From positions 62,001 to 126,000 of the forward strand of contig NZ_JAALFE010000009.1 of NCBI RefSeq assembly GCF_011059185.1: a DNA stretch of 64,000 nt, in the 5' to 3' direction. The notes under the pieces were generated by a model that saw only the letters and a program-made list of their open reading frames with translations, was not told where the DNA came from and ran no database searches. Origin of the DNA: Paragemmobacter kunshanensis (GTDB taxonomy: Bacteria; Pseudomonadota; Alphaproteobacteria; Rhodobacterales; Rhodobacteraceae). The first letter of the stretch is position 1; the number at the start of each line of letters is the position of its first letter. Of the stretch, positions 36,491 to 62,192 are shown one piece after another. A program made the position numbers and the translations under genes.

Positions 36491-36491
36491 G

Positions 36492-37430: not shown

Positions 37431-37472
37431 ACCGCACAGGACAGGCGCAAGGCAGAGAGGCGCGGGCATGCT

Positions 37473-39900: not shown

Positions 39901-39903
39901 GAT

Positions 39904-41691
39904 ATGGGGCAGGACATGGACAGGACCATTGATCCGATCACCTTGCAGGTCATCGGGGGGGCGCTGCATGCGATCGCCGAGCAGATGGGGAACGTGCTGT
40001 ACCGCATGTCCTATTCGTCGATCATCCGCGAAAGCCAGGACCTTGGCGCGGGGTTGTTCGATCTGGATTACAATACGCTGTGCGAAAGCGATTCCACACC
40101 AATGCATATCGGGTCGATCCCCGGCTATCTGCGCGGGATCGAGAAGAGTATTCCCAAGGATTCCTGGCGGCCAGGGGATGTGGTGATCCACAACCACCCC
40201 TATTACGGAGCCAGCCATTCGCCCGATATCGGGATCGTGATGCCGATCTTCTATCGCGGCGAGCTGGTCGGATTTTCGGCCAATACGGCGCATCACCTGG
40301 ATATCGGGGCGGCAACGCCGGGGCTGATCATCGACGTGCCGGATGTCTTTGCCGAGGGCATGTTGCTGAACGGGCTGAAGCTGGCCGAGGCGGGTGTCCG
40401 GAACGAGACGCTCTGGCGCTATATCAGTGGCAATACGCGGGTGCCCGGGCTGGTGATGCGCGATCTGGAAGCGCAGATCGCGGCGGCGGAACTGGGGGTG
40501 AAGCGCTATTGCGAGCTGATGGACACCTATGGGCGCGACACCGTGGAACAGGCCGCGGCGCAGCTCATGGACTATTCCGAGCGCATGTTGCGGCGCGAGA
40601 TCGCCAAGATCCCCGACGGGGATTACACCGCCGAAGGGTTCATGGATGATGACGGGCGGACGCGTGACGTGCGGCTGCCGATCAAGGTGACAGTGCGGGT
40701 GCGGGGCGATGATGTGGAGGTGGACCTGACCGGGTCTTCGCCTCAGGTGCCCACGGCTTTCAACGTGCCCTTCGAGGGTTCCACCAAGGTGGCCTGCTAT
40801 TTCGCCTTCCGGGCGTTGCTGCTGGATACCTATACCAATCAGGAATACATCCCGCAGAACGAGGGGTCATTCCGGCCGGTGAAGGTGACGGCGCCGCTCG
40901 GGTCCATCTTCAACCCGATCGCACCCGCCGCCTGCGAGGCGCGGTTCAACCAGATCCAGCGTGTCGTGGACCTGATCATCAAGGCACTGGCACCGGTCCT
41001 GCCGGAGAAATCGACGGCGGGGAATGCGGCCTGTCTTTCCTTTGCCTCTTATTCGGGCGTGCGCGAGAGCGGGGATTACTGGGTGTTGATCGAGGTGAAC
41101 GAAGCGGCGATGGGGGGGCGGCCCCATTCCGATGGGCCGGACACGATCGAGGAATTGATGCGCAACACGCGCAACAACCCGCTGGAGGATCTGGGCATGC
41201 ATCTGCCGATGATCTGCGACCGCTACGAGATCCGCGACGACGTGTTCCCGGGGGCGGGAAAGTATCGTGGGGGCATGGGCGTGGTGAAATCCCAGCGCTT
41301 TCTTACTCCGGGCTTCATGACGCATGAAAGCGACAGGAACGAGGACGCGCCCTGGGGGATCTTTGGCGGGACGGATGGCGTTCCGGCGCGGGTGCGTATC
41401 CACAATGCGGCGCGGGCAGAGGAGCCGCGCGATGTGCATGCCAAATTCTCGGGCATGCGGGCCGAGTTGGGGGATGTTGTCAGCTATCTGTCGCCATGCG
41501 GGGGCGGGTTCGGCAACCCGTTGGAGCGTGCGCCGGCCAAGGTGCTGGACGATTTGCTGGATGGTTTCATCAGTGCAGACCATGCGCGCGAGGTTTATGG
41601 CGTGGTCTTCAAGCCTGTCTCCAACGGCTATGGCTGGGGGTTGGACGAAGCCGCGACCGAGGCCCTGCGCGCCCAGCGTCGCGTGGCATAG
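39904..41691 (+). CDS. hyuB: Hydantoinase/oxoprolinase subunit B (copy 2)
   Basis: A 595-residue HydB subunit, paralogous to the 32184 gene (shared runs include SSIIRESQDLGAGLFD and ATPGLIIDVPDVFAEGM). AGGAGG at 39890-39895 supports the start at 39904; an ATG at 39916 is possible. It forms a tight pair with hyuA2. A LysR gene with a TTG start follows after 17 nt and may be co-transcribed. Confidence 0.87.
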   Translation: MGQDMDRTIDPITLQVIGGALHAIAEQMGNVLYRMSYSSIIRESQDLGAGLFDLDYNTLCESDSTPMHIGSIPGYLRGIEKSIPKDSWRPGDVVIHNHPYYGASHSPDIGIVMPIFYRGELVGFSANTAHHLDIGAATPGLIIDVPDVFAEGMLLNGLKLAEAGVRNETLWRYISGNTRVPGLVMRDLEAQIAAAELGVKRYCELMDTYGRDTVEQAAAQLMDYSERMLRREIAKIPDGDYTAEGFMDDDGRTRDVRLPIKVTVRVRGDDVEVDLTGSSPQVPTAFNVPFEGSTKVACYFAFRALLLDTYTNQEYIPQNEGSFRPVKVTAPLGSIFNPIAPAACEARFNQIQRVVDLIIKALAPVLPEKSTAGNAACLSFASYSGVRESGDYWVLIEVNEAAMGGRPHSDGPDTIEELMRNTRNNPLEDLGMHLPMICDRYEIRDDVFPGAGKYRGGMGVVKSQRFLTPGFMTHESDRNEDAPWGIFGGTDGVPARVRIHNAARAEEPRDVHAKFSGMRAELGDVVSYLSPCGGGFGNPLERAPAKVLDDLLDGFISADHAREVYGVVFKPVSNGYGWGLDEAATEALRAQRRVA

Positions 41692-44663: not shown

Positions 44664-45623
44664 TCAGTCGTTGCACGCCGCGGTGATCTGCGCGCGATAG
44701 CCGGACGGGGTCTGGCCGAACTTTGCCTTGAACAGGCGCGAAAACTGCGCCTGGTCGGAAAATCCGAAGCGATATGCAATGTCGGACATCTGGCCGGGAT
44801 TGGGCATCTGGAGCAGGTCGCGCGCGGCCTTGAGACGTTCTTCCCGGACGAATTGCGAGACGGTGCAGTTCACCTCGGCAAAGAGTTCATGAAGGTAGCG
44901 CTTCGAGATGCCCACGGCGTCGGCGATGATTTCCGGCGAGAGATCGGGGTTCGACAGATCCCGCAGGATCACGTTTTCGGCGCGCCGGCGGTGGGCATCG
45001 CGCACCGAAGAGCCGGCACCCTGTTCCACCTCGCTCGTCCGGTCGAGGGCGAGGGCGAGGAGTTCGACCAGATGGCGGCTGAGGACAGCATCGCTATTGG
45101 GATCGGAGCTGGCATGGCGTTGGATCTGCTGCGCCATGGTGGTGAAGAGGGAGCCGATGCCTTCGCGCCCGTTGAAGACCAGGGCGCAGTAGCGATCGGG
45201 ATTGCGGAGCTTGGTCGCGAGGACGGGCTTTGCGATCTTGAGCACACAGAGGTCGTTCGCGTTGGCATAGGAGAAGCGATAGGGTTCGTCGCCGCGTTCC
45301 AGGATGAAGCCGCCCGGATCGCAGCGCACCTCGCGGCCCAGTTGGCGGAAATCGACGGGCGACTTGCGTGGGATTGTGATGAGGTACTGCTCTTCCGTGG
45401 CGGAGGAGATGTGATGGCGGTGGCGTTCGTACTGCACCGCTTCGGTACACAGGCGCGACAGCGAGATATCGCCAACGTTGCTGTGTTCGAGCTGGCCTTC
45501 GAACCGTGCGGCATCGCGGAAGGTCAGGTCGAGCGGGAAATACGCCTCGGCGATCACCGCGTTCCAGTGCCCGGCGCGCGCCGACGCGGGCAGTCTGTCC
45601 GTGCTGTGCAGGCTGCGTGTCAT
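44664..45623 (-). CDS. AraC-family transcriptional regulator
   Basis: A 319-residue regulator. Residues about 30-200 form an AraC-binding-like domain of the type found in FeaR/AlkS-like activators. The C-terminal double helix-turn-helix (about 215-315) contains SPEIIADAVGISKRYLHELFAE and MSDIAYRFGFSDQAQFSRLFKAKFGQTPSGYR. It is divergent from the hyuB3-pxp operon with a 310-nt gap, which holds GTGACAA direct repeats, so it probably activates that operon. Start at 45623. Confidence 0.85.
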   Translation of the reverse strand: MTRSLHSTDRLPASARAGHWNAVIAEAYFPLDLTFRDAARFEGQLEHSNVGDISLSRLCTEAVQYERHRHHISSATEEQYLITIPRKSPVDFRQLGREVRCDPGGFILERGDEPYRFSYANANDLCVLKIAKPVLATKLRNPDRYCALVFNGREGIGSLFTTMAQQIQRHASSDPNSDAVLSRHLVELLALALDRTSEVEQGAGSSVRDAHRRRAENVILRDLSNPDLSPEIIADAVGISKRYLHELFAEVNCTVSQFVREERLKAARDLLQMPNPGQMSDIAYRFGFSDQAQFSRLFKAKFGQTPSGYRAQITAACND

Positions 45624-45933: not shown

Positions 45934-47691
45934 ATGGCTGCACGAAACGTCGATCCGATCACATTGTCCGTTGTGCGCGGGGTGCTGGAGACGACCCAGC
46001 GCGAGATGACGCTGGCGCTGGAACAGACCGCGCGATCATCGGTGTTCAACCTGGCGCATGACTATTCGACGGCACTGTTCAACCATACGCCCGAGATGAT
46101 CCTGCAGGGGCAGGACATTCCCATTCATCTGGGCAGCCTGATCCCGGCGATGAAATCGGTGGCAAGCTATTTTGCCGGTGACATCCATGACGGCGATCTG
46201 ATGCTGCACAACGATCCCTCCTATGGCGGCAGCCACATCATCGACACCTGCATGTACATGCCGGTGTTCTATGAGGGCGAACTGGTCTTCTGGACGGTAT
46301 GCAAGGGCCACCTGACCGATATCGGCGGGCCGGTTCCGGCGGGATACAACCCCAATGCAACAGAGATCTATGCCGAGGGGCTGCGCATTCCGCCGGTCAA
46401 GATCTGGGACAAGGGCAAGCCGCGCAACGACGTGATGAACCTGCTGCTGTCCAACATGCGGGCGCGGCGCGATCAGGAAGGTGATTTTAACGCGCTGATC
46501 GGGGCCTGCCAGGTGGGTGCGCGCAACCTGAAGCGGCTGATGGACAAATACGGCAAGGCAATGGTGCAGGAGTGCATCGCCGAATTGCTGGACATGGCAG
46601 AGCATCACATGCGGTCGCTGATCGCCGAGGTGCCGGACGGCACCTATAGCGGAACGGCGATCCTGGAGGATGCCGGCCACGGCTATGGCGATTTCGAGAT
46701 CACCGCGACGGTGACGATCAAGGGCGACGGGTGCCATATTGCCATCAACAGCCCTCCGCAGATTCCCTATTTCATCAACAGCTATGAGGGAAACAGCCAT
46801 TCCGGTGTCTATCTGGGGCTGATGATGTTCGCGCAACTGCCGCCCCCTTACAACGAGGGGCTGTATCGCTGCGTTACAACCGACATGGGTCCGAAGGGGA
46901 CGCTGTGCAACGCGAAGTCGCCCGCGCCGCACATGAACTGCACCACGACGCCGATGGAGACCCTGACCGATGCGGTGCGGCTGGCCTTTGAACAGGCGGC
47001 GCCGGCCAAGGTTTCGGCAAGCTGGGGCCATGCCAATGGCTGCAACATCGCAGGATGGGACAAGCGGCATGACGAGGAATATGTGACGATGGTCCTGGCC
47101 TCGATCATCTCGGGGGCGGGGGCCACGGCGCAGGCAGATGGCTGGCATGCGGTGGGGCCAGAATGCTGTTTCGGGGCGCTGACGAGCGGCGATATCGAGA
47201 TGCTGGAACACAGCTATCCGATCATCATCCACCGTTATTCGCTGATGGAGGACAGCGGCGGGGCGGGCAAAAACCGGGGTGGATCCGGCACCTGCTGGGA
47301 GGTGGAGCCGCTCGACACGCCTATGACGCTGATCACTTTCGGCGAGGGACGGCGCATCCCGGCGATGGGGGCGGCGGGGGCGAAATCCGCGATGGTGGAA
47401 AAGAAGGTGGGGCGGCTGGAGGTGACCCGGAACGGGCAGACCCAGATCATCACCAACAACGTGATCGAGACGATCCAGCCCGGTGAAAGGGCTGCAAACA
47501 AGAACCCTGGCGGCGGCGGTTTCGGCAACCCGTTCGAGCGGGATGTGCAGAAGGTGGTCGAGGATGTGCGCAATGGTCTGGTGAGCCTTGAAGGCGCGCG
47601 CCTGGACTACGGCGTGGTCATCACGGACCGCGAGAGCCTGACCGTCGATGCCGATGCCACCGCGAAACTGCGCGCAGCGGCGGCTGCCTGA
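45934..47691 (+). CDS. hyuB: Hydantoinase/oxoprolinase subunit B (copy 3, divergent)
   Basis: A 585-residue HydB-family subunit. GDLMLHNDPSYGGSHIIDTCMYMP and the C-terminal KNPGGGGFGNPFERDVQKV are the family hallmarks, but overall it is clearly more distant from copies 1 and 2 than they are from each other. Here the order is B then A, the reverse of the other pairs. The start follows GAGGAGG. It opens a probable seven-gene operon through pxpC. Acetone/acetophenone carboxylase beta-type subunits and caprolactamase are related, so a lactam or carboxylation role is possible. Confidence 0.85.
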   Translation: MAARNVDPITLSVVRGVLETTQREMTLALEQTARSSVFNLAHDYSTALFNHTPEMILQGQDIPIHLGSLIPAMKSVASYFAGDIHDGDLMLHNDPSYGGSHIIDTCMYMPVFYEGELVFWTVCKGHLTDIGGPVPAGYNPNATEIYAEGLRIPPVKIWDKGKPRNDVMNLLLSNMRARRDQEGDFNALIGACQVGARNLKRLMDKYGKAMVQECIAELLDMAEHHMRSLIAEVPDGTYSGTAILEDAGHGYGDFEITATVTIKGDGCHIAINSPPQIPYFINSYEGNSHSGVYLGLMMFAQLPPPYNEGLYRCVTTDMGPKGTLCNAKSPAPHMNCTTTPMETLTDAVRLAFEQAAPAKVSASWGHANGCNIAGWDKRHDEEYVTMVLASIISGAGATAQADGWHAVGPECCFGALTSGDIEMLEHSYPIIIHRYSLMEDSGGAGKNRGGSGTCWEVEPLDTPMTLITFGEGRRIPAMGAAGAKSAMVEKKVGRLEVTRNGQTQIITNNVIETIQPGERAANKNPGGGGFGNPFERDVQKVVEDVRNGLVSLEGARLDYGVVITDRESLTVDADATAKLRAAAAA

Positions 47692-47714
47692 AACCCGGAC
47701 CGAGGATAACCGAA

Positions 47715-49793
47715 ATGCAGAACCAATATCGTTTGGGCATCGACGCGGGCGGCACCTTCACGGATTTCATCCTTGCCGATCGCGAAGGGGAGGTGCGCAT
47801 CTTCAAGGCCCTGTCCACCCCGCAGGACCCGACGCAGGCCATCCGCAACGGTCTTGCCCTGATCGAGGAGGAGACGGGCATCAAGGCGGGCGAGATCGTG
47901 TCGCATGCCGATCTGTGCATCAACGGCACGACCGTGGGGCTGAACGCGCTGATCCAGCACAAGGGCGCGCGGACGGGGCTGATCGCCACGGCCGGCCATG
48001 AGGACTCAATCGAGATCCGTCTGGGCCATAAGGAAGACGGCTATCGTTATGATCCGGAATATCCTCCGGCGCGGATGCTGGTGCCGCGCTATCTGCGGCG
48101 CGGGGTGCGCGAGCGGGTGGTGTCGACTGGCGCGGTGCATATCCCGTTGCACGAGGAGGATGTGCGCGCGGCCTGCGCGCATTTCCTGCGCGAGGGCGTG
48201 GAGTCGGTGGCGATCAGCTTTGTCTGGTCGGTGCTGCATCCCGAGCATGAGATGCGCGCGGCCGAGATCGTGCGCGAGATGATGCCGGATGTGCGCCTAA
48301 CCGTGGGCAGCCAGCTTTACCCGCAGGTGCGGGAATATACCCGCACCTCGACCGCTATCGTGAACGCCTATCTGGCGCCGATCCTGTCGCGCTATGTAGA
48401 GGCGGTGGATGGCTACTTCCGAAGCCTGGGGGCGAAGAACCCGGTGCGCTATTTCCAGTCGAATGGCGGGCTGGCTCTGGGGTCGGTGGTCAGCGATCAA
48501 TCGGTCTATGCGATCAATTCCGGCCCGGCCTCTGCGCCGCAGGCGGCGCTCTATATCGGCGAGCCGTGGGATTTGAAGAACATCATCACGGTGGACATGG
48601 GGGGCACCTCGTTCGACATCACGCTGACGCGGGACGGGCGGGCGAATGTGTCGAAGAACATAGACTTCCTGCGCTATCGCATCGGCATCCCGATGATCCA
48701 GGTGGAAACGCTGGGCGCGGGGGGTGGGTCCATCGGCTGGATCGACAGCATGGGCCTGTTGCAGATGGGCCCGCAATCGGCGGGATCCGAGCCGGGGCCT
48801 GCCTGCTATGATCAGGGCGGCGAGAAGCCCACGACGACGGATGCCAACCTTGTGCTGGGCTATCTGAATCCCGATGGACTGGTGGGCGGACGCTTGCCGC
48901 TGAACGTGACCAGGGCGCGGACGGCCATCGAGACGCATCTGGCCCGGCCGCTGGGCTTGACCGTGGAGCAGGCGGCCTTTGGCATGTTCACTATCGTGAA
49001 CAACAACATGGTGAACGCCATCCGCCGCGTGTCGGTGGAGCGTGGCTATGATCCGCGCGACTTCGTGCTGAACTGCGCGGGCGGCGCGACCGGGGCGCAT
49101 ATCTCGGCGCTGGCGCGGGAAATGGGCATCCGGCGGGTGCTGGTGTCGAAACTGGCCTCGGGCCTTTGCGCCTATGGGCAGATCATTTCGGATGTGAAGT
49201 ACAACTACATGGCTCCGGCGCCGGTGCGGCTGGAGGGCGCAGTGGCTGCGGAGCGGCTGGACGGGCTGTTCCGGGGGCTGGAGGCGCGAGGGATCGCGGA
49301 CCTGGCCGCCGACGGGTTCGGCGAGGACCGCGTCACGATCCGGCGGTCGCTGGACATGCGCTATGTGGGACAGGTGCATGAATGCACCGTCGACGTCGAC
49401 CCCTTCCCGCTGGACGAAGCCGCGCTAGAACGTTTACGGTCGGCGTTCCATGCGCGCCATGAAGAGCTTTATACCTATTCCGAGCCAGGCAGTGTCGTGG
49501 AGGTCGTGAATGTGGAAAGCGCCATCTGGGGCCAGGTGGACAAGCCGAAGCGGATGTCGATCGCGCAGGGAGCTGGCGCCGACAAGGCGCTGGTCGGGAC
49601 GCGAGAGATGATCTTCACGGCCGACGGGGTGGCACGCTCTGCCCCGGTCTATGCGGGCGATCTGCTGGGGGCAGGGGACCGGATCGTGGGCCCCGCGGTG
49701 ATCGAGGAAGTGACTACGACCGTGGTGATCGAACCGGACTGGACGGCCGAACTGCACGAGTCGGGGGTCTATGTTCTGGATTACAGGGGCTGA
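47715..49793 (+). CDS. hyuA: Hydantoinase/oxoprolinase subunit A (copy 3, divergent)
   Basis: A 692-residue ATP-binding subunit with LGIDAGGTFTDFILAD at the N-terminus and TVDMGGTSFDITLT centrally as the ASKHA phosphate loops. GAGRGGSIG-type and SEPGPACY segments are conserved, but it is a different subgroup from copies 1 and 2. It follows hyuB3 by 23 nt and precedes pxpA by 12 nt. Together with the biotin-linked genes it may act on a lactam or cyclic imide. Confidence 0.86.
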   Translation: MQNQYRLGIDAGGTFTDFILADREGEVRIFKALSTPQDPTQAIRNGLALIEEETGIKAGEIVSHADLCINGTTVGLNALIQHKGARTGLIATAGHEDSIEIRLGHKEDGYRYDPEYPPARMLVPRYLRRGVRERVVSTGAVHIPLHEEDVRAACAHFLREGVESVAISFVWSVLHPEHEMRAAEIVREMMPDVRLTVGSQLYPQVREYTRTSTAIVNAYLAPILSRYVEAVDGYFRSLGAKNPVRYFQSNGGLALGSVVSDQSVYAINSGPASAPQAALYIGEPWDLKNIITVDMGGTSFDITLTRDGRANVSKNIDFLRYRIGIPMIQVETLGAGGGSIGWIDSMGLLQMGPQSAGSEPGPACYDQGGEKPTTTDANLVLGYLNPDGLVGGRLPLNVTRARTAIETHLARPLGLTVEQAAFGMFTIVNNNMVNAIRRVSVERGYDPRDFVLNCAGGATGAHISALAREMGIRRVLVSKLASGLCAYGQIISDVKYNYMAPAPVRLEGAVAAERLDGLFRGLEARGIADLAADGFGEDRVTIRRSLDMRYVGQVHECTVDVDPFPLDEAALERLRSAFHARHEELYTYSEPGSVVEVVNVESAIWGQVDKPKRMSIAQGAGADKALVGTREMIFTADGVARSAPVYAGDLLGAGDRIVGPAVIEEVTTTVVIEPDWTAELHESGVYVLDYRG

Positions 49794-49805
49794 GGAGGGG
49801 ACGGC

Positions 49806-50519
49806 ATGACCATCATCAACTGTGACATGGGCGAAGGGTTCGGCCTCTATCGGATCGGCGATGACGAGGGGCTCATGCCGCTGATCGACGTGGCCAATGT
49901 GGCCTGCGGATTTCATGCGTCCGATTTCAACCACATGCGGCGAACGGTGCAACTGGCCGCGCGGCATGGCGTGAAGGTGGGGGCGCATCCGTCCCTGCCG
50001 GATCTGCAGGGCTTTGGCCGCCGGGAGATGAAGATCGGGCGCGAGGAACTGGTCAACTGCATGATCTATCAGATCGGGGCGCTGAAAGGGTTCCTCGAGG
50101 CCGAAGGCATGGCGTTGAACCATATCAAGCCGCACGGATCGCTTTATGGCATGGCTGCGCGGATCGAGGATGTGGCCAATGCCGTGGCGGATGTTGCCGA
50201 CATCTTCCGCGTGCCGCTGTTCGGTATGGCCGGGACGCTGCACGAGACGATCTATACCGCGCGGGGCCATGCCTTCGTGTCGGAATTCTATGCCGACCTA
50301 GACTACAACGATCAGGGCGGGCTGATCATCACCCGCGAACATGCGGCGACCGATCCGGCGCTGGCGGCTGCGAATTGTCGCCGCGCAGTTGCCGAGGGCA
50401 AGGTGACCAGCGTGGGCGGCGTCGATGTGGCGGTCCGCGCCGATGCAATCTGCGTGCATTCCGATACGCCCAACGCTGTGGCCGTGGCCGAGGCGGTGCG
50501 TGCCGCCGTAGCGGCCTGA
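49806..50519 (+). CDS. pxpA: LamB/YcsF family protein, 5-oxoprolinase subunit A
   Basis: A 237-residue LamB/YcsF protein. The N-terminal INCDMGEGFG and ANVACGFHASD, then KVGAHPSLPD and HIKPHGSLYG, are the signature metal/active-site segments of the family. In Bacillus subtilis and E. coli PxpA acts with PxpB and PxpC to open 5-oxoproline using ATP. Here pxpB and pxpC are in the same operon but separated from pxpA by a biotin carrier and biotin carboxylase. AGGAGGGG precedes the start. Confidence 0.88.
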   Translation: MTIINCDMGEGFGLYRIGDDEGLMPLIDVANVACGFHASDFNHMRRTVQLAARHGVKVGAHPSLPDLQGFGRREMKIGREELVNCMIYQIGALKGFLEAEGMALNHIKPHGSLYGMAARIEDVANAVADVADIFRVPLFGMAGTLHETIYTARGHAFVSEFYADLDYNDQGGLIITREHAATDPALAAANCRRAVAEGKVTSVGGVDVAVRADAICVHSDTPNAVAVAEAVRAAVAA

Positions 50520-50549
50520 TCCCATTCAACCGAAGACGAGGACCGAGAC

Positions 50550-50786
50550 ATGAGCAAGCAGATCCTTTCGCCCCTTCCCGGCACCTTCTATCGGCGCCCC
50601 TCGCCCGACAAGCCGGCCTTCAAGGAGGTGGGTGACCCGGTTGCCGTGGGTGACGTCATCGGGCTGATCGAGGTGATGAAGTCCTTTAACGAGGTGCAGG
50701 CGGATCAGGCCGGCACGATCATCGGATTTCCCGTCGATGACGAGGAACCGGTGATGGCGGGTCAGCCGCTTGTCGATCTGGGCTGA
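50550..50786 (+). CDS. Minimal biotin carboxyl carrier protein
   Basis: A 78-residue protein that is almost only the biotinyl domain: SPLPGTFYRRPSPDKPAFKEVGDPV, then IEVMKSFNEVQAD with the biotinylated Lys in VMKSF, then GQPLVDLG. AccB of fatty acid synthesis is about 150 residues with a Pro/Ala-rich N-terminus, which is missing here. The biotin carboxylase gene follows after 3 nt. In this operon it most likely serves PxpB/PxpC as carboxyltransferase rather than acetyl-CoA carboxylase. Confidence 0.85.
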   Translation: MSKQILSPLPGTFYRRPSPDKPAFKEVGDPVAVGDVIGLIEVMKSFNEVQADQAGTIIGFPVDDEEPVMAGQPLVDLG

Positions 50787-50789
50787 GCA

Positions 50790-52172
50790 ATGGCGATCCG
50801 CAAGCTTCTGATCGCCAACCGGGGCGAGATTGCCGTACGGATCATCCGCGCGGCCAGAGAGTTGGGCATCAGGACCGTGCAGGTCTACAGCATGGCCGAT
50901 GCCGACAGTCTGGCGGTGAAGCTGGCCGATGAGGCCGTGCCGATCGGCCCGCCTGCCGCGGCAAAATCCTATCTGAAGATCGACACGATCCTTGAAGCGG
51001 CGCGGTTGACCGGGGCGGATGCGGTGCATCCGGGCTATGGCTTTCTGGCCGAGAACGCGGATTTCGCCGATGCAGTGGAGGCGGCGGGCATGATCTGGGT
51101 CGGCCCCAAGGGCGATGCGATCCGGGTAATGGGTGACAAGGTCGCCGCGCGGATCGCCGCGGAACGGGCGGGCGTGCCTGTCGTGCCGGGGTCGGACGGG
51201 CGGGTGGACGACCCAGAACAGGCGCGCGCCATCGCGCTTGCCATCGGGTTTCCGGTGATGATCAAGGCCGCCGCCGGTGGGGGCGGGCGGGGCATCCGCA
51301 TCGCCCATGACATGGAGGAGTTCGACCGCCTGATGCTGCAGGCCAGCGCTGAGGCGAGGGCGGCCTTCGGGGACGGGGGCCTGTATCTGGAAAAGGTGAT
51401 CGAGCGCGCGCGGCATATCGAGGTGCAGATCCTTGGAGACGGCACGCGCGCCGTGCATTGCTTTGAGCGGGAATGTTCGCTGCAACGCCGCCGCCAGAAG
51501 GTCTGGGAAGAGGCGCCGTCGGCTGCCTTGCCGCAGAGCTTGCGGGAGAAGCTCTGCGCTTCGGCCGTGTCTCTTGCTGAGTCGGTGGGGTATCGCGGGG
51601 CGGGGACGCTGGAATATCTGTATGACGACCAGAGCGGGCAGTTCTTTTTTATCGAGATGAACACGCGGATCCAGGTTGAGCATCCGGTGACCGAGATGGT
51701 CACTGGGTTGGATCTGGTGCGCGAGATGATCCGGGTGGCGGGGGGAGAACCCCTGCGAATGCGGCAGGACGAGATCGTCCTGCGCGGGCATGCCATTGAA
51801 GTGCGGATCAATGCCGAGGACCCGGCGCGCAACTTTCAACCGGGGCCGGGAACAGTGGCCGCGCTGTCGGTGCCTGGGGGGGCGGGGGTGCGGTTCGATA
51901 CGATGCTGTATCAGGGCTATACCGTGCCGCCCTTCTACGACTCGCTTCTGGGAAAGCTGATCGTCTGGGACGAGGACCGCAGCGCCGCGATCGCGCGCAT
52001 GGCGCGGGCCTTGGACGAATTGTCAGTCGAGGGGCTGCCTACGACGAAACCCCTGCACGAGCTGCTCGCGCGCGACCCCGAGGTTGCGGCGGCGGCTTTT
52101 CACACGCGCTGGCTGGAACCCTGGCTGGAGCGAAATGCACACCGGCTTGGCACTGAGGAGACCACGGAATGA
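50790..52172 (+). CDS. accC: Biotin carboxylase
   Basis: A 460-residue ATP-grasp biotin carboxylase that carboxylates biotin with bicarbonate and ATP. The N-terminal LIANRGEIAVRIIRAARELGI, the glycine loop AAAGGGGRGIRIA, the EKVIERARHIEVQILGD segment and the catalytic FFIEMNTRIQVEHPVTEM are intact. The length is close to AccC (449). It starts 3 nt after the carrier gene and overlaps pxpB by 4 nt, so it is dedicated to this operon. A housekeeping role in fatty acid synthesis is unlikely because accA, accD and full accB are absent. Confidence 0.9.
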   Translation: MAIRKLLIANRGEIAVRIIRAARELGIRTVQVYSMADADSLAVKLADEAVPIGPPAAAKSYLKIDTILEAARLTGADAVHPGYGFLAENADFADAVEAAGMIWVGPKGDAIRVMGDKVAARIAAERAGVPVVPGSDGRVDDPEQARAIALAIGFPVMIKAAAGGGGRGIRIAHDMEEFDRLMLQASAEARAAFGDGGLYLEKVIERARHIEVQILGDGTRAVHCFERECSLQRRRQKVWEEAPSAALPQSLREKLCASAVSLAESVGYRGAGTLEYLYDDQSGQFFFIEMNTRIQVEHPVTEMVTGLDLVREMIRVAGGEPLRMRQDEIVLRGHAIEVRINAEDPARNFQPGPGTVAALSVPGGAGVRFDTMLYQGYTVPPFYDSLLGKLIVWDEDRSAAIARMARALDELSVEGLPTTKPLHELLARDPEVAAAAFHTRWLEPWLERNAHRLGTEETTE

Positions 52173-53044
52173 ATACCAGATACTCCTTCGGCGGCGATGA
52201 GCACATCTTCGTGGAGTGCGACGAGGAGATGTCGCTTGAAGCCTTTTTCAAGGGCATGTCGATCACGACCGCGCTCAGGGAAGCGAAGATCAGGGGCGTG
52301 ACGGAAATTTGCCCGGCGAATGCGTCGTTTCAGGTGCGCTTTGATCCGGATGTCATCGCTCCCGAGGCGATGTTGTCGGAGCTGAAGGCGCTGGAGGCGG
52401 CGGCGCAGGCGGCACCTTCGGTGCTGGAGACGCGGATCATCGAGGTGCCGGTCTATTACAACGACCCCTGGACCCATGAGACGCTGATGCGGTTTCGCGA
52501 GCGGCATCAGGACCCGACCTCGACCGATGTGGAATACACGGCGCGGATCAACAATCTGGATGGTGTGGACGGGTTCGTGAAGGCCCATTCCGGTGCGCCC
52601 TGGTTCGTGTCGATGGTGGGGTTCGTGGCCGGCCTGCCGTTCCTTTATCAGATGGTGGACCGCGCGCGGCAGATACAGTCGCCCAAGTACCTGCGCCCGC
52701 GGACGGATACGCCGCGTCTGACCGTGGGGCATGGCGGCTGTTTCGGCTGCATCTATTCGGTGCGGGGGGCGGGCGGTTATCAGATGTTCGGCATCACGCC
52801 GATGCCGATCTACGACCCGAACCAGACGGTTCCCTACCTGCGCGATTTCATGTGCCTGTTCAAACCCGGCGACATCGTGAAGTGGAAGCCCATCGGGCGC
52901 GAGGAATACGACCATACCGTCGCCGAGGTGGATGCGGGCCGCTGGATGCCGCGCATCGCGCCGGTGACCTTTTCGCTGGCAGAGTTCCAGAAGGACATCG
53001 ACGGGACCAACACCCGGATCATGGAGGCGCTCAATGGCCATTAA
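52169..53044 (+). CDS. pxpB: 5-oxoprolinase/urea carboxylase-type carboxyltransferase subunit 1 (KipI-like)
   Basis: A 291-residue AHS1/KipI-family protein. The central EVPVYYNDP, the GFVAGLPFLYQM segment and the SVRGAGGYQMFGITPMPIYDP segment are conserved in the family and in the carboxyltransferase part of urea carboxylase. It overlaps the biotin carboxylase stop (ATGA) and pxpC by 11 nt. With the carrier and carboxylase genes it can be read as a separate-gene version of urea carboxylase's transferase domain. Confidence 0.87.
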   Translation: MNTRYSFGGDEHIFVECDEEMSLEAFFKGMSITTALREAKIRGVTEICPANASFQVRFDPDVIAPEAMLSELKALEAAAQAAPSVLETRIIEVPVYYNDPWTHETLMRFRERHQDPTSTDVEYTARINNLDGVDGFVKAHSGAPWFVSMVGFVAGLPFLYQMVDRARQIQSPKYLRPRTDTPRLTVGHGGCFGCIYSVRGAGGYQMFGITPMPIYDPNQTVPYLRDFMCLFKPGDIVKWKPIGREEYDHTVAEVDAGRWMPRIAPVTFSLAEFQKDIDGTNTRIMEALNGH

Positions 53045-54017
53045 TGTCATCAAGCCGGGGCTTTCCACCACGGTGCAGGATCTGGGGCGGCCCGGATATT
53101 ACCACATCGGCATTCCCACCTCTGGCGCGATGGACATGCTGTCGCTGGCTGCGGCGAACCTGCTGGTTGGCAACCCGGCGGGGGCCGCGGCGCTGGAGGC
53201 GGTGTTCATGGGGCCGGAACTGGAATTCACCGCCGATGCGATGGTGGCGGTGACCGGGGCCGACATGCCGCCGAAGGTGGACGGGCAGGAACAGGCGGGC
53301 TGGACGGCCTTTCCGGTGAAGAAGGGGCAGGTGCTGAGCTTCGGCTTCCTGAAGGCGGGGGCGAGGGCCTATATCGCTGTGTCGGGCGGGATCGACGTGC
53401 CGGTCGTGCTGGGATCGCGGTCGACCTATACGCTGGGGGCGCTTGGCGGGTTCGAGGGACGCAAACTGCAGGCGGGCGACGTGCTGCCGATGGCGGCAGG
53501 GTCGGGTGCCCGTTCCAGTGTCAGTGCCGGTCGGTCTGTGCCCGAGGAGTTACGGCGCAGGCCGGGGGCGCCGGCGGAATTGCGGATGCTGCCCGGGCTT
53601 TACTGGCATCGCATCACCGAGGCTGCCGGGGAGCGGTTCTTCGAGGACACCTGGAAGGTCGCCCCCGAGGCGGACCGGATCGGATACCGCTTCAAGGCCG
53701 GGCAGCCGCTTGAATTCGTGGACCGCGAACAACCCTTCGGGGCAGGATCAGATCCGTCGAACATCGTGGATGCCTGCTATCCCTATGGATCGGTCCAGGT
53801 GCCGGGCGGCACGGAGCCCATCGTTCTGCATCGTGACGCGGTGTCCGGAGGCGGCTATTTCATGGTCGGGACGGTCATCTCGGCCGACATGGATCTGATC
53901 GGGCAGTTGCAGCCGCATACGCCGACCCGGTTCGTGAAGGTGACGATGGAAGAGGCGCTGGCGGCCCGGCGCGATCGCAAGGCGGTGCTGGAGGGCATCG
54001 CCGCGGCGCTGGCCTGA
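53034..54017 (+). CDS. pxpC: Biotin-dependent carboxyltransferase/5-oxoprolinase subunit (KipA-like)
   Basis: A 327-residue AHS2/KipA-family protein. VIKPGLSTTVQDLGRPGY is the family N-terminus; AYIAVSGGIDVPVVLGSRSTYTLGALGGFEGR is the most conserved block, and the C-terminal SGGGYFMVGTVISADMDLIGQL closes the domain. The start lies within the end of pxpB, so the two subunits are translationally coupled as expected for a stable complex. It is the last clear member of the hyuB3-hyuA3-pxpA-carrier-accC-pxpB-pxpC operon; the next gene begins 61 nt on. Confidence 0.88.
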   Translation: MAINVIKPGLSTTVQDLGRPGYYHIGIPTSGAMDMLSLAAANLLVGNPAGAAALEAVFMGPELEFTADAMVAVTGADMPPKVDGQEQAGWTAFPVKKGQVLSFGFLKAGARAYIAVSGGIDVPVVLGSRSTYTLGALGGFEGRKLQAGDVLPMAAGSGARSSVSAGRSVPEELRRRPGAPAELRMLPGLYWHRITEAAGERFFEDTWKVAPEADRIGYRFKAGQPLEFVDREQPFGAGSDPSNIVDACYPYGSVQVPGGTEPIVLHRDAVSGGGYFMVGTVISADMDLIGQLQPHTPTRFVKVTMEEALAARRDRKAVLEGIAAALA

Positions 54018-54078
54018 CGGCGCAGGGAAAACAGGCGCGGGCGTCCGTCCGCCCGCGCCCGACCTTGTGCGAGGACAG

Positions 54079-55314
54079 ATGTACGAAGCCGAAGATCAGA
54101 CCCAGCTTGCTGCGCCGCCGCATGTTCAGCGGCGGGTGCTGCGTGTTCTGGGCACATCGATCACTCTGCTGCCGCCGGTGCGCGATCAGGCGCGGGCGGA
54201 TCTGGGCTTCGACATCGTTTTCGAGGAGATGGATTTCCTGGATTGCCAGAGGCAGGCAGCGATGCGGCCGGATGGCTATGACGTCTATGAGCAATGCTTT
54301 CACAACCTGGACATCGTGTGGTTCTGGGGGGCGTTGCAGCCCATCGACATCGCGCGCATCGCGGAATGGGACAATATCTCGGATCTGGTGAAACTGGGCG
54401 GTGTATCGAAATATGCCGGGCGCGGCCTTGGCGATGCGCCCGTGAAGAAGCTTTATATCCAGCCGGGCGGATTTCTGGGATCAAAGCCATCGCGCCATAT
54501 CAGCATGTTGCCCACCGTGCACAACATGGACAGCTTCGGCTTCGATGCGCGGGTATTCGGGACGGGGACGGATCCGCGGCCAAGCTGGGCCTGGCTGCTG
54601 GATCGCCGGGCGAAGGGGCGGATAGCGCTGGTCGATGAGCCTGCGATCGGGTTTTTCGATGCGGCCCTGGCGGCCGAGGCATCGGGGGAGCTTGAGTTTG
54701 CCGATATCGGCAACATGACCATCGACGAGATCAACGCGCTGATGAAGCTTCTGGAGCGCAAGCGGGTGGAGGGATACTTCTGCGGCACCTGGCGCGGCGG
54801 GGAGGAAGCGGCTTCGCTGGCGGAAGCCGGCAGCGTGGCGGTGCAGAGCATGTGGTCGCCCGTATACGGCAAGCTTCGCGCGGCGCGTCCGCATTTCATC
54901 GAGGCGGCGCCGACCGAGGGCTATCGGGCCTGGCATGGCGGGGCGAGCCTGTCGCGCCATCTGCGCGGGGCGGTGCTGGACATGGCCTATGAATATCTCA
55001 ACTGGTGGCTTTCGGGTTTCGCCGGGGCAGTGATGGCGCGGCAGGGCTATTACATCTCCAACCCGGCCCGCGCCCGCGATCACCTGTGCCCCGAGGAATG
55101 GGCCTATTGGTACGAAGGGGCCGCAGCCGCGCGCGATCTGGCCGGGCCGACGGGGGAGACGACCGTGAAGGCGGGGGAGCGCCGGGCGGGAGGCGCCTAT
55201 ACGGACCGGGCGCGCAAGATCGTGATCTGGAACACGGTCATGGACGAGTACAACTACGCTGCACGCGCATGGGACCGATTTGTCCGCCGTGTTCAGGATG
55301 GGGGCGAGGCATGA
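54079..55314 (+). CDS. Solute-binding-protein-like protein without a signal peptide
   Basis: A 411-residue protein related to spermidine/putrescine-type (PotD/extracellular binding protein 1) solute-binding proteins. It is paralogous to the binding protein at 60897: both have LR-LG-S-T near the N-terminus, and WWLSGFAGAVMARQGYYISN here matches YWLSGGPAVAVSEQGYYSPN there, followed by YWYEG versus FWYEG. Unlike that protein it begins MYEAEDQTQLAAPPHVQRR, with no Sec or Tat signal, and the 61 nt upstream cannot supply one. GAGGACAG precedes the ATG at 54079 (a GTG at 54067 is possible). It overlaps the GntR gene by 4 nt. A cytoplasmic ligand-sensing or enzymatic role is suggested. Confidence 0.78.
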   Translation: MYEAEDQTQLAAPPHVQRRVLRVLGTSITLLPPVRDQARADLGFDIVFEEMDFLDCQRQAAMRPDGYDVYEQCFHNLDIVWFWGALQPIDIARIAEWDNISDLVKLGGVSKYAGRGLGDAPVKKLYIQPGGFLGSKPSRHISMLPTVHNMDSFGFDARVFGTGTDPRPSWAWLLDRRAKGRIALVDEPAIGFFDAALAAEASGELEFADIGNMTIDEINALMKLLERKRVEGYFCGTWRGGEEAASLAEAGSVAVQSMWSPVYGKLRAARPHFIEAAPTEGYRAWHGGASLSRHLRGAVLDMAYEYLNWWLSGFAGAVMARQGYYISNPARARDHLCPEEWAYWYEGAAAARDLAGPTGETTVKAGERRAGGAYTDRARKIVIWNTVMDEYNYAARAWDRFVRRVQDGGEA

Positions 55315-56294
55315 TCCGTTCGGCCAATCCCCTGGCGCAGGAGCCGCGCTATGAGCTGATCGCCCGGGTTCTGCGCGAGAACATCGCGGCCGGCATCCTT
55401 CCGGAAGGGTTCGTGCTGCTGGAGGGGCCGATCGCCACGGTGATGCAGACAAGCCGCGTGCCGGTGCAGGCGGCGTTGCGGCAGTTGCTGGAAGAGAGAC
55501 TGATCAGCCGCTTTGACGGAAGGGGTTATCTGGTGGGGCGGGTGACGGCCGGGACAGTGCCGATCCGGCGCGACATCCGGGAGCTGGACCTATTGATCCC
55601 ACCGATGGTGGATGATGCCCTGCAGACGCGCGGGACATGGCGCCATGTCTATGACGAGGTCGAGGAAGAGGTGGCGTCCTGCCAGATCTTCGGCGAGTTC
55701 CGCATCGTCGAGACGGAGCTTGCCGAGCATCTGGGCGTCAGCCGCACCGTCGTCCGCGACGTGCTGGCGCGGTTGCAGGAGAGGGGGCTGATTCGGAAGA
55801 GTGCCGCCTCGCACTGGATCGCGGGGCCGCTGACCGCGCGGACCGTCAGCGACAAGTTCGAGCTGCGCGGCATCGTCGAGCCTGCCGCGCTGCGGCTTGC
55901 CGCGCCGCATATCCGTTATGCCGAGGTGGAGGACCTGCTGGAGCGAATCGAAACCGACCCGGCGATCACGCCACAGGAGATGGCGGATGCGCTTATGGAA
56001 CACTGCATAGCGCAGGCACCAAACACCGCCCTTGTTGAGATGATCCGCAGCAACCGCCTCCTTCTTTCGGCAGTGGATCGGGCGCTGATCCGCCTGGGGC
56101 TGCCCCCGGACGAGGACACGATTGAGCAATATCAGACGCTGCTGGACCTCATTTCCAGGCATCCCATTGATTCCGCTTGTGAATATTTGCGGGATCACCT
56201 GTCCATCACCGCGCGGCGCTATCTGGCGCGGATGAAGATCGTCGCTGTCATCCCTGAGGCGGGAGCCTTTGCGCCGTATCTGAGTCCGCAGTAA
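55311..56294 (+). CDS. GntR-family regulator with two winged-helix domains
   Basis: A 327-residue regulator. Residues about 13-76 form one GntR winged helix (YELIARVLRENIAAGILPEG ... VPVQAALRQLLEERLISRF). A second complete one is at about 113-172 (TELAEHLGVSRTVVRDVLARLQERGLI), followed by an FCD-type helical domain (about 175-310). Normal FadR-type proteins have only one. The start overlaps the stop of the signal-less solute-binding-like gene, so the two are co-translated. A terminator and then the promoter of the ABC operon follow, so it probably controls that operon. Confidence 0.8.
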   Translation: MIRSANPLAQEPRYELIARVLRENIAAGILPEGFVLLEGPIATVMQTSRVPVQAALRQLLEERLISRFDGRGYLVGRVTAGTVPIRRDIRELDLLIPPMVDDALQTRGTWRHVYDEVEEEVASCQIFGEFRIVETELAEHLGVSRTVVRDVLARLQERGLIRKSAASHWIAGPLTARTVSDKFELRGIVEPAALRLAAPHIRYAEVEDLLERIETDPAITPQEMADALMEHCIAQAPNTALVEMIRSNRLLLSAVDRALIRLGLPPDEDTIEQYQTLLDLISRHPIDSACEYLRDHLSITARRYLARMKIVAVIPEAGAFAPYLSPQ

Positions 56295-56446: not shown

Positions 56447-56554
56447 ACGAAGTACAGTTTATGCGGGTCGTGTGACTCGGTCGTCCGGCTGGTTTCGGAC
56501 AGCAATCAAAAAGGGGTGGCCGCGAAGCGACCCCAGCACACAGGTGAGGTGGAT

Positions 56555-57631
56555 TTGGACACGTCGGTCTTCAGACTGGACGGCGTCACCAAGCGCTATG
56601 GCGACTTGGTTGCGCTTGACAATGCATCGCTGGAGGCGGGTGCGAACGAGTATATCTCGTTCCTCGGCCCGTCCGGGTCGGGCAAGACAACCTTGCTGAG
56701 GGTGATCGCCGGTTTTGAGGCGCCCGAAGCGGGGCGAGTCTTCTTCAACGGGCGCGACATTACCAATCTGCCTGCGCATGAGCGCGGTATCGGCTTCGTC
56801 TTCCAGAATTTCGCGCTGTTCCCGCATCTGACTGTGATCCAGAATGTCGGCTTCGGTCTGACACATGGGAAATCCGGGCTGAGCGCGGCCGAGATCGAGC
56901 GGCGCAGCCTCGAGATGATCGAACTGGTCGGCCTGTCGGGGATGGAAGGGCGAGGGGTCGATCAGATCTCGGGCGGCCAACGGCAGCGGGTGGCGCTGGC
57001 GCGGACGCTGACCATGCATCCGAAGCTGGTGCTTCTGGATGAACCCCTAGGCGCGCTGGACGCCAATCTCCGGTCGCGGATGCGGACGGAGTTGCGGGCA
57101 ATCCGCGAAAGGCTGGGCGTGACCTTCGTCCATGTGACGGGCAGCGAGAATGAGGCGTTGGCGATGGGCGATCGCGTCGTCGTGCTGGACCGGGGGCGCA
57201 TCATCCAGACCGGGACGCCGGGCGAGGTGTATGACAGCCCCGCTTCGCCTGACGTGGCGCATTTTCTGAACCGGTTCAACCTGTTCGACGGCAATCTTTC
57301 GGGAGGCCGGTTCAACGGCGTGTTCGGTTCCGTGCCGGTGCCGCGCAGCGTGCGGTCCGACCGGGATGTCTATGCCGTGCGCTATGACCGGATGCGGGCA
57401 CTGCCGGTTTCCGCCGATGCGGCGGGCCCGGCCATCAAGGCGCGCTTCGTGGCTTCGGAATACCTCGGATCGTCGATGATGAACTTCTTCGAGGCCGAGG
57501 ATGGCCATGTGATCGAGATGGAGCATCACCTGAGCCTTGGCACCCCCCAAACCTTCGAGGCGCGGCAGGACTATCTGCTGACCTGGAACCCGGAACAGGC
57601 CATCGTCTTTGGTCGCGAGGCATCCCGATGA
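56555..57631 (+). CDS. Spermidine/putrescine-type ABC ATPase 1, H-loop histidine missing
   Basis: A PotA-like ATPase of about 358 residues. Walker A FLGPSGSGKTTLL, Q-loop FVFQNFALFPHL, signature ISGGQRQRVALA and Walker B LVLLDEPLGALD are intact, and a TOBE-like regulatory domain follows from about residue 245. After Walker B, where relatives read VTHDQ-EA with the switch histidine, this protein reads VTGSENEA, so the H-loop histidine is glycine. The start is uncertain: TTG at 56555 (GAGG 5 nt upstream) is preferred to GTG at 56549 or 56516. It overlaps the permease gene by 4 nt. A second ATPase with a normal H-loop ends the operon. Confidence 0.82.
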   Translation: MDTSVFRLDGVTKRYGDLVALDNASLEAGANEYISFLGPSGSGKTTLLRVIAGFEAPEAGRVFFNGRDITNLPAHERGIGFVFQNFALFPHLTVIQNVGFGLTHGKSGLSAAEIERRSLEMIELVGLSGMEGRGVDQISGGQRQRVALARTLTMHPKLVLLDEPLGALDANLRSRMRTELRAIRERLGVTFVHVTGSENEALAMGDRVVVLDRGRIIQTGTPGEVYDSPASPDVAHFLNRFNLFDGNLSGGRFNGVFGSVPVPRSVRSDRDVYAVRYDRMRALPVSADAAGPAIKARFVASEYLGSSMMNFFEAEDGHVIEMEHHLSLGTPQTFEARQDYLLTWNPEQAIVFGREASR

Positions 57632-58500
57632 GCAGCCAGATCTCCATTCAGAAACGTCAGTCCAAGACCACCCGCTGGTTGCTGGCGCCGGGCATCATCT
57701 GGATGTCGCTGTTCCTGGTCGTGCCGATCCTGATGATCGTCTACGTGTCCTTCTGGACGCAGACGACCTTCAACATCTCACCCGATCCGACGCTGGCGAG
57801 CTGGAAGCAGTTCTTCTCGTCCGACACCTATACCGGCTCGCTGTGGACCACGGTGCGGATCTGGCTGATCGTTCTGGCCTGCACCTTTGTCGTCGGCTAT
57901 CCGACCGCGCTTTTCGTGGGGCTCTTCGTCAAGTCGAAGACGCTGTCGACGGTTCTGCTGGTGATCTGCGTGATTCCTTTCTGGACATCGTTCCTGATCC
58001 GCGTGCTGGCCTGGCGGCCGATGCTTGGCAAGGAGGGCGCGATCAATATCGTGCTGCTGAAACTGGGGATCATCCAGCAGCCAATCGAGGTGCTGTTGTT
58101 CACCGAACTGTCGGTGATCATCGGGATGACGCAGATCTATTGCGTGTTCATGGTCGGCCCCATTGCCTTCATGCTGAGCCGGATCGACCGCAACATCATC
58201 GAGGCGGCACGCGATCTGGGTGCGGGGTTCGGGCGGATCTTCTGGAAGATCATCTTCCCGCTGTCGCTGCCGGGTGTCGTGGTGGGCGCGATCTTCGTGT
58301 CGGTCATGGTGCTGGGTGAATTCGCGACTTCGGGCGCACTGTCGGGCCGGAAGGTGAACCTGCTGGGCAACATCATCGTGACGCAGGTTGGTTCGCTGAA
58401 ATGGGCGATGGCGTCGGTCGTGGGGGTGATCCTGACGGTGGTCATGGGCATCGTGATCGCGGGCTTCCTGCGCATCGTCGATCTGAAGCGGGAGCTGTAA
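57628..58500 (+). CDS. ABC transporter permease (PotB-like)
   Basis: A 290-residue permease with about six helices; residues 20-50 are the first helix (LLAPGIIWMSLFLVVPILMI). The EAA loop is EAARDLGAGFGRIFWKIIFPLSLPG near residue 190, which contacts an ATPase. The start overlaps ATPase 1 (ATGA). It belongs to the spermidine/putrescine/2-aminoethylphosphonate-type importers. Confidence 0.88.
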   Translation: MSSQISIQKRQSKTTRWLLAPGIIWMSLFLVVPILMIVYVSFWTQTTFNISPDPTLASWKQFFSSDTYTGSLWTTVRIWLIVLACTFVVGYPTALFVGLFVKSKTLSTVLLVICVIPFWTSFLIRVLAWRPMLGKEGAINIVLLKLGIIQQPIEVLLFTELSVIIGMTQIYCVFMVGPIAFMLSRIDRNIIEAARDLGAGFGRIFWKIIFPLSLPGVVVGAIFVSVMVLGEFATSGALSGRKVNLLGNIIVTQVGSLKWAMASVVGVILTVVMGIVIAGFLRIVDLKREL

Positions 58501-58503
58501 GTC

Positions 58504-59355
58504 ATGGAATCGCGCATCCTGAAACCCGCGCTTGGCCTTTACGTCGCGCTGTTCGTGCTGTTCCTTTACGGGCCGTTCGTGGTGCTGACGATCATCTCGT
58601 TCCAGCAGGGGCCTGAGGGCGGGCCGCAGTTCCCGATCATCGAATGGTCCACCTACTGGTATCGCCACATCTTTGGGCTGACCCCGCCGTCACGCATCGC
58701 GCCGCTGCCTTTCGGCGAGGCCTTGCTGCGGTCGCTGGTGCTGGCCTTCATGACGATGGTGGTGTCCACCGTGCTGGGCGTGATGTCGGCACAGGCCTTC
58801 CGGCGCAAGTTCAAGGGATCGGGCGTCGTCTTCTACCTGATCGTGCTGGGCATGATGGTGCCGGGCGTGCTGACCGGGCTGGGAACGTCGCTCTTGGCCA
58901 ACAACGTGATCGGGATCGAGCGGCACTGGTACACGACCGCCTTTGCCACCCATGTGGCCTATACCTTTCCCTTTGCCTTCCTTGTGATGCTGGCGATCCT
59001 GAACCGCTTTGACGCCTCTGTCGAAGAAGCGTCCTGGTCGCTGGGGGTGGATCCCTGGACCACCTTCCGCAAGGTGACCTTCCCGCTGATCTTCCCGGGC
59101 GTGCTGTCGGCGATGCTGTTTGCCTTCACGCTGTCGCTGGACGAATTCCCCCGGACGCTGTTCGCTTCTGGGCGGGATCAGACCCTGCCGCTGGCGATCT
59201 ACGGGACTTTCTCGGTCGAGATCCATCCCAACATCTTTGCCTTCGGGGTGCTGACGACGCTGTTCTCCTTTGCGCTTTTGTCGGTCTACGGGCTGCTGAT
59301 GGCGATGTCCGTGCGGCGCGCGAGGAAGATGGCCATGCAGGAGGATATCGCATGA
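58504..59355 (+). CDS. ABC transporter permease (PotC-like)
   Basis: A 283-residue permease partner with about six helices. Its EAA loop is EEASWSLGVDPWTTFRKVTFPLIFPG near residue 176. It starts 3 nt after the first permease and overlaps the SDR gene by 4 nt. Together with the first permease it forms the channel fed by the Tat-exported binding protein at 60897. Confidence 0.88.
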   Translation: MESRILKPALGLYVALFVLFLYGPFVVLTIISFQQGPEGGPQFPIIEWSTYWYRHIFGLTPPSRIAPLPFGEALLRSLVLAFMTMVVSTVLGVMSAQAFRRKFKGSGVVFYLIVLGMMVPGVLTGLGTSLLANNVIGIERHWYTTAFATHVAYTFPFAFLVMLAILNRFDASVEEASWSLGVDPWTTFRKVTFPLIFPGVLSAMLFAFTLSLDEFPRTLFASGRDQTLPLAIYGTFSVEIHPNIFAFGVLTTLFSFALLSVYGLLMAMSVRRARKMAMQEDIA

Positions 59356-62120: not shown

Positions 62121-62135
62121 TCCGACGCGAAACCT

Positions 62136-62162
62136 GCGGTCGGGGCGATCTGCCCCGGCCGC
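62136..62162 (+). promoter_or_regulatory. Stem-loop after the binding-protein gene
   Basis: GCGGTCGGGGC (62136-62146) and GCCCCGGCCGC (62152-62162) pair over 11 bp with one G-T mismatch and a 5-nt loop. No T-tract follows. As after ytfQ, it lies between a binding-protein gene and an ATPase gene, the usual place for a message-protecting hairpin. Confidence 0.6.
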
Positions 62163-62192
62163 ACCCAAGACCAGACATCCGGGGACTTTCCA

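Follow-up and report, generated by a model that had tools for sequence, protein, structure and literature searches.

Seven intact, co-directional reading frames follow one another on the + strand at 45934-54017 of a 64,000-nucleotide stretch of Paragemmobacter kunshanensis DNA (contig NZ_JAALFE010000009.1, positions 62,001 to 126,000; this whole stretch is called the window), and the question they raise is whether they encode one enzyme or more. In order, the products are HyuB, HyuA, PxpA, a stand-alone biotin carboxyl carrier protein, an AccC-type biotin carboxylase, and PxpB- and PxpC-like subunits of a carboxyltransferase; the genes for the last five are here called the block. An earlier note on this DNA had made all seven parts of a single, urea-carboxylase-like enzyme. 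The reading favoured here, with a probability of roughly 0.68, is instead that two separate systems, both dependent on ATP and bicarbonate and both opening unreactive amide rings, are laid out as one operon: a caprolactamase-type pair, HyuBA, and the block, which, judged from its sequence, is most likely a split N-carboxylase of the urea carboxylase type whose product would be hydrolysed by PxpA.

The gene calls of the note, with separate genes for carrier, AccC, PxpB and PxpC beside PxpA and HyuBA, are right: the frames are intact and match their families. The gaps between the genes measure 23, 12, 30, 3, -4 and -11 bp, Shine-Dalgarno-like stretches can be made out by eye ahead of several starts, and the seven genes are probably co-transcribed. 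Relatives were collected by a contig scan with the window's PxpB, thus chosen by similarity to it; the best 80 of at least 574 loci were fetched, of which 72 are checkable (8 have too little flank) and 64 have full flanks. The grouping in the window is not a chance one, since the order PxpA-carrier-AccC-PxpB-PxpC, on one strand, is kept in 70 of the 72 checkable relatives; the exceptions are L085, where an AccC match was not found, and L116, where PxpA is inverted.

Kinship of the block to urea carboxylase

The PxpB-like subunit (52169-53044, +; PF02682, 131 bits) corresponds to carboxyltransferase subdomains C/D, the PxpC-like subunit (53034-54017, +; PF02626, 303 bits) to subdomains A/B. On the urea_carbox model they score 117.7 and 240 bits; on the models for ordinary PxpB (TIGR00370) and PxpC (NF045499) they reach 66.9 and 227.9 bits, under the cut-offs of 145.55 and 500. 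Lys 173 of PxpB is the equivalent of Lys1605 in the urea amidolyase of Kluyveromyces lactis. That residue most likely acts as the indispensable general base when the carboxyl group is transferred, and its exchange for alanine (K1605A) lowers kcat to 9.5% (PMC5770610; this and the other papers are cited from excerpts of their text). This position is Lys in all 116 block PxpB (the window's included), in all 22 urea carboxylase rows (identified for these counts by open-frame length) and in one intermediate sequence; it is Arg in all 19 other PxpB, 14 of them without and 5 with AccC nearby.

Phylogenies agree with this pattern. A quick PxpB tree of 77 rows gives SH-aLRT values of 99 for the block, 99 for urea carboxylase, and 99 for both plus the intermediate against the rest; a careful tree of 39 of these rows, which strengthens the kinship, gives 100/100, 100/99 and 100/99 (bootstrap/SH-aLRT) for the same groups, and a quick PxpC tree of 75 rows gives 99 for the block, 99 for urea carboxylase and 90 for both plus the intermediate. 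Of the 116 block loci, these trees use 35, 13 and 34, respectively. Rows L160 (of L126), L164 (of L008) and L038 (of L155) were dropped as duplicates; the PxpC tree leaves out L167, which repeats the gene of L134, and L091, where PxpC is broken in two; the 77-row tree holds two pairs of urea carboxylase rows that are the same gene, and the careful tree is without the ordinary L147, L152, L155 and L156 and 12 urea carboxylase rows.

The biotin parts are equally well kept. The 78-residue carrier (50550-50786, +; PF00364, 54.6 bits; NF005457, 121 bits with a cut-off of 87) has the motif EVMKS with Lys 44; its Glu41, Met43 and Lys44 do not vary across the 76 carriers found among the 116 loci, most of the missing ones belonging to loci that end before the gene. 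AccC (50790-52172, +) passes NCBIfam NF009471 (PRK12833; 770.5 bits, cut-off 686) and also the general accC model TIGR00514 (632 against 626.5 bits). Eleven of its catalytic positions, which we take to be those of E. coli AccC, are invariant in all 111 AccC that score over 550 bits, out of the 116 loci. BirA is present in the organism's own genome. As an observation on the side, bioB lies directly behind the block (L178, 16159-17139) on a plasmid of Acidiphilium that was classed as conjugative.

The assignment of the block to a split urea carboxylase-type N-carboxylase, for which the note's proposal finds support, is a probable one and rests on the retained lysine, the grouping of PxpB and PxpC with urea carboxylase, the invariance of the biotin and biotin carboxylase residues, and the presence of BirA and of an ordinary pxpABC set in the genome. 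With urea carboxylase (K. lactis, PDB 3va7 and 5i8i; TIGR02712) the block shares biotin carboxylase, carrier and a KipI/KipA-type carboxyltransferase with the catalytic lysine; it differs in having these on four separate chains rather than one, in being paired with PxpA, and in forming its own branch of the tree. The single-chain model TIGR02712 (cut-off 1303.85 bits) is not reached by any of the four products, the best being AccC at 518 bits. A PxpB search found no urea carboxylase in the organism's own genome, though the same search found it in other genomes.

Database names suggest a different enzyme, an accessory acetyl- or acyl-CoA carboxylase: NCBIfam models name both AccC and the carrier after acetyl-CoA carboxylase, so that biotin carboxylase and carrier are accounted for, and AccC exceeds the general accC model. 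This is scarcely probable at all, as an AccA/AccD-type carboxyltransferase domain was not found in the nine proteins scanned, the carboxyltransferase genes that are present group with urea carboxylase, and the genome has another AccC-like gene elsewhere, 54% identical, together with two longer biotin carboxylase proteins; no other AccC relative in this genome exceeds 54%.

The block and ordinary PxpABC

Several points weigh against reading the block as an N-carboxylase. All three tree runs gave long-branch warnings, mostly among ordinary PxpB, and the loci compared are the 80 most like the window's PxpB among at least 574. The predicted model of PxpC (mean pLDDT 75) is about as close to E. coli YbgK (E 1.1e-29) as to urea amidolyase (E 1.1e-28); the fold thus cannot choose between the two kinships, leaves this question undecided, and was dropped as an arbiter. 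In L128 and L130, which belong to one genus, block-type PxpB and PxpC stand with PxpA and no AccC within the short loci, and neither AccC nor carrier was found in 14 kb around L130 (read as L219); a carrier search gave, for these two genomes, only longer carriers, elsewhere in the genome. That search took in four block genomes, and in G420 and G517 it yielded frames of 144-154 aa only and no 78-aa carrier. To these are added the AccC match that was not found at L085, the five Arg-type PxpB that adjoin AccC (in three regions read at greater length, AccC and carrier are one fused chain), and the catalytic role of PxpA, which is one that we infer.

Some of these points would suit an ordinary, biotin-independent 5-oxoprolinase, PxpABC, that merely adjoins spare acetyl-CoA carboxylase genes, namely the fold of PxpC, as near to YbgK as to urea carboxylase, and the biotin-free surroundings of L128 and L130. 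PxpA itself (49806-50519, +; LamB/YcsF family, PF03746, 291 bits) passes two subfamily models (NF003814, 257 against 226 bits; NF003816, 218 against 213 bits) and misses three PxpA equivalog models (NF003812, NF003813, NF003815). Among 36 block genomes, moreover, 7 have no PxpC-type gene besides that of the block when frames shorter than 600 aa are counted. This explanation is nevertheless decidedly unlikely: PxpB and PxpC fall well short of their ordinary models, the Lys that replaces Arg is found in every block PxpB, and the biotin genes lie within the operon in 70 of 72 loci. The other 29 of the 36 block genomes do have another PxpC-type gene, so that the block as a rule comes on top of it. 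This holds for P. kunshanensis, whose second set comprises another PxpC, an ordinary PxpB (147.1 bits, over the cut-off of 145.55) and an adjoining PxpA. Compared with PxpABC of E. coli (YbgL/YbgJ/YbgK, PDB 1xw8 and 5dud), the block likewise has PxpA, PxpB and PxpC homologues in one operon; what sets it apart is the urea carboxylase-type Lys for Arg, the sub-threshold PxpB and PxpC, and the carrier and biotin carboxylase genes.

The note had argued from the premise that biotin genes mark an enzyme other than an oxoprolinase. To our knowledge, the known PxpABC oxoprolinases indeed need no biotin; the premise is weakened by the five Arg-type, ordinary PxpB next to AccC. By the same token, the lysine is not a simple mark of biotin use, and it was rejected as a strict marker on the strength of all five of these PxpB. 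Three such regions (L216, L217, L218) show a second biotin-linked arrangement, in which PxpA and Arg-type PxpB and PxpC are followed by an AccC-carrier fusion with the motif AMKM. Another arrangement is seen in L215 (4741-8260), where ABC transport genes are followed by PxpB, PxpC, carrier and AccC, and a PxpA match was not seen; this is possibly a split urea-type carboxylase of an intermediate clade.

HyuBA and its link to the block

The first two genes, described in the note as an ATP-dependent HyuBA pair, can be narrowed down to the caprolactamase type. HyuB (45934-47691, +; PF02538, 521 bits) scores 1111 bits on the NCBIfam CapB model NF050157, HyuA (47715-49793, +; PF01968, 288 bits) 1216 bits on the CapA model NF050156, both over cut-offs of 1000; the best phmmer match of either is in PDB 6yra (HyuB to 6yra_B, 917 bits; HyuA to 6yra_A, 836 bits). 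When the residues named for caprolactamase in PMC8453981 are placed on HyuBA by the offsets of the 6yra alignments, all four metal ligands of CapB (D41, H99, D102, H124) are identical in HyuB, the equivalents of CapA D11 and D295 are identical in HyuA, and of 15 pocket positions of CapB (13 residues and two vicinal cysteines) 14 are identical, the remaining one being Cys for Ile. CapA Lys40, also named in the excerpt of PMC8453981, lands on Pro in HyuA by the offset used and was set aside. HyuBA thus resembles CapAB of Pseudomonas jessenii (6yra) in exceeding both family cut-offs and in keeping the metal ligands, and differs from it in sharing an operon with the five-gene biotin block; its function here is predicted.

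On the other strand, divergent from capB, lies an AraC-family regulator (44664-45623, -; start and name judged by eye), homologues of which are found divergent to CapBA in many loci, in both of the arrangements described below.

The core set of five genes is widespread and forms a distinct family: close PxpB (at least 66% identity) occur in 24 of 196 genomes of the order, after which identity falls to about 31%. HyuBA accompanies it less regularly. Among the 64 full-flank loci, CapBA (at least 60% identity) is near the block in 25, downstream in 14 and upstream in 11, and other HyuAB are near it in 9; HyuAB was not found within the available flanks of the remaining 30. In the 196 genomes, close CapB (E up to 1e-150) is found in 12 and the block in 24, and the two together in 9 where 1.5 are expected (hypergeometric P 2.4e-7, a value that ignores kinship); in 6 of these 9 genomes no more than about 7 kb separates them, and in the other 3 they are on different contigs. 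The association of HyuBA with the block is real, yet not obligatory.

These figures bear directly on the single enzyme proposed in the note, in which HyuBA, PxpA and the biotin parts would form one complex with one substrate. The unbroken run of seven co-directional genes (gaps of -11 to +30 bp), the recurrence of CapBA or other HyuAB near the block in two arrangements, and the co-occurrence of CapB and block in 9 of 12 CapB genomes are what such a complex would lead one to expect. Opposed to it are the 30 of 64 loci in which HyuAB was not found, the 15 of 24 block genomes without close CapB, the 3 of 12 CapB genomes without the block, and the 3 genomes that carry both on different contigs; in addition, HyuBA is of the caprolactamase kind, and caprolactamase produced in E. 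coli as CapAB is reported, in the excerpt of PMC8453981, to be active and to need ATP and bicarbonate. HyuBA being separable from the block, the seven-part complex is rejected as the leading reading and is very unlikely. Of the seven genes of the note, the five of the block stay together (in 70 of 72 loci), without HyuBA as a constant companion.

Neighbouring genes, known relatives and the proposed reactions

The borders drawn in the note enclose the seven genes correctly, while the cluster extends further, and past the end of the window. Behind pxpC follow a solute-binding-protein-like gene (54067-55314, +; a distant match to YdcS, far under its cut-off), a GntR regulator (55311-56294, +; PF00392 in two stretches and PF07729) that adjoins it, an ABC transporter of one ATPase and two permeases, Pot-like by eye (56516-59355, +; homologues in relatives are annotated as ABC transporter), two SDR dehydrogenases (59352-60835, +; homologues in L177 match adh_short), a second solute-binding protein with a second ABC ATPase (60897-63296, +; assigned from the frames and their N termini), and the start of an amidase (63304-64000, +), which continues past the window end, shares 57% identity with a Rhizobium amidase over 232 aa and has a full-length frame in L181. 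Beyond the window, the organism's own cluster goes on with the amidase and with deacetylase and CobW-type GTPase homologues.

Some details of this stretch stand by themselves. Between pxpC and the solute-binding-protein-like gene, at 54032-54061, there is a strong GC-rich hairpin with a terminator-like score on the - strand. The solute-binding-like protein and its homologues show no evident signal peptide; its gene in the window adjoins that of the GntR regulator, and it is perhaps a cytosolic sensor. The GntR regulator combines two GntR DNA-binding stretches and an FCD domain in one chain, and the second solute-binding protein (60897-62120) has, by eye, a Tat-like signal.

In other organisms the block keeps similar company. 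Five annotated plasmid regions and L220 combine it, in varying part, with ABC transporters, two SDRs, an amidase, a deacetylase and a CobW-type GTPase; a permease named in its record as an allantoin permease lies beside the Roseateles block (L177), and a homologue at 54% beside the block of genome G555 (L220). Some of these neighbours, namely the permease, the PuuE-like deacetylase and the amidase, fit ureide or amide chemistry and point to cyclic amides or ureides as substrates, names being weak evidence. The scores count against leaning on them: the permease reaches 26.6 bits on the NCS1 model (cut-off 353.1), the deacetylase 83.4 bits on PuuE (cut-off 424.6), and the partial Rhizobium homologue of the amidase 220 bits on AtzE (cut-off 425.75).

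The same neighbours, together with the urea carboxylase kinship of PxpB and PxpC, could be taken to indicate a split urea or guanidine carboxylase, acting on a urea-like substrate and followed by the downstream amidase as allophanate hydrolase; models of amidase, of AtzE and of allophanate hydrolase all match the Rhizobium homologue. This homologue, a partial sequence, scores only 161 bits on the allophanate hydrolase model TIGR02713 (cut-off 511), however, and PxpA is present in all 72 checkable loci, forward in 71. We know of no urea carboxylase that uses PxpA, and this reading is unlikely.

Under the favoured reading of two systems, the reactions may be envisaged as follows. CapA would activate a lactam with ATP and bicarbonate, which would then be opened at the metal site of CapB. 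In the second system, AccC would use ATP and bicarbonate to carboxylate the biotin on Lys 44 of the carrier; PxpB and PxpC, as carboxyltransferase with Lys 173 as general base, would move the carboxyl group to a nitrogen atom in an amide or ureide bond of the substrate; and PxpA would hydrolyse the activated amide bond next to the N-carboxyl group, after which the resulting carbamate would lose CO2. Where the substrate is a ring, the block would be a carboxylation-activated hydrolase of lactams or cyclic ureides, the ring nitrogen being carboxylated via carboxybiotin and the ring opened by PxpA with release of CO2; this specific form is put forward tentatively, at a little less than an even chance.

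A similarly composed operon has already been published. In Pseudomonas aeruginosa, PA0493-PA0496 include AccB and AccC homologues and their precise function is called unknown (PMC6249292), PA0492-PA0496 are lowered together on ParB excess (PMC5521831), and PA0495 and PA0496 are called allophanate hydrolase (PMC8768829). By these excerpts, the operon shares with the block a biotin-requiring protein, an AccC homologue (55% to AccC) and two allophanate-hydrolase-named genes, with PA0492 adjoining; the two are presumably equivalent, as judged from annotation rather than from sequence. A survey of 2011 noted the two split carboxyltransferase genes, left unstudied (PMC3199775, excerpt), and PDB 9yx5 holds PxpC- and PxpB-like chains (V, W) and a biotin carboxylase alpha3 chain in one entry, which does not imply one complex; it is not among the matches listed in the fold comparison of PxpC. 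Among the matches listed for open PMC papers, titles and abstract openings give no function for the five-gene block. The note's description of a system not yet described thus holds for the function and fails for the make-up.

Two other parts of the window were seen in passing. The region 29222-41691 holds two further HyuA-HyuB pairs and genes for an isochorismatase-family protein and a carbon-nitrogen hydrolase; an acyl-CoA dehydrogenase and a CoA-transferase were made out there by eye. This is perhaps a wider island for N-heterocycle breakdown. At 210-7480 there is, again by eye, a cluster like those for taurine/sulfoacetaldehyde breakdown (aminotransferase, GntR/MocR regulator, Xsc-like and TauE-like proteins, kinase).

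For the organism, the role of the locus is probably to open stubborn ring-shaped nitrogen compounds. If the favoured reading is true, the block would provide a further route to the opening of unreactive lactams beside those of CapAB/OplA and plain PxpABC, and would explain why it shares operons with HyuAB enzymes, which would act on the same ring or on the one that follows; in P. kunshanensis, it would place an N-carboxylase beside a caprolactamase, a kind of enzyme that attracts interest for breaking down nylon-6, with the ordinary pxpABC of the same genome as an internal comparison. Many proteobacterial genes named for acetyl-CoA carboxylase and for 5-oxoprolinase subunits would then be misnamed parts of one biotin-dependent N-carboxylase, and the family would represent urea carboxylase chemistry in unfused form and connect urea carboxylase with the use of ATP by PxpABC in a way that can be tested.

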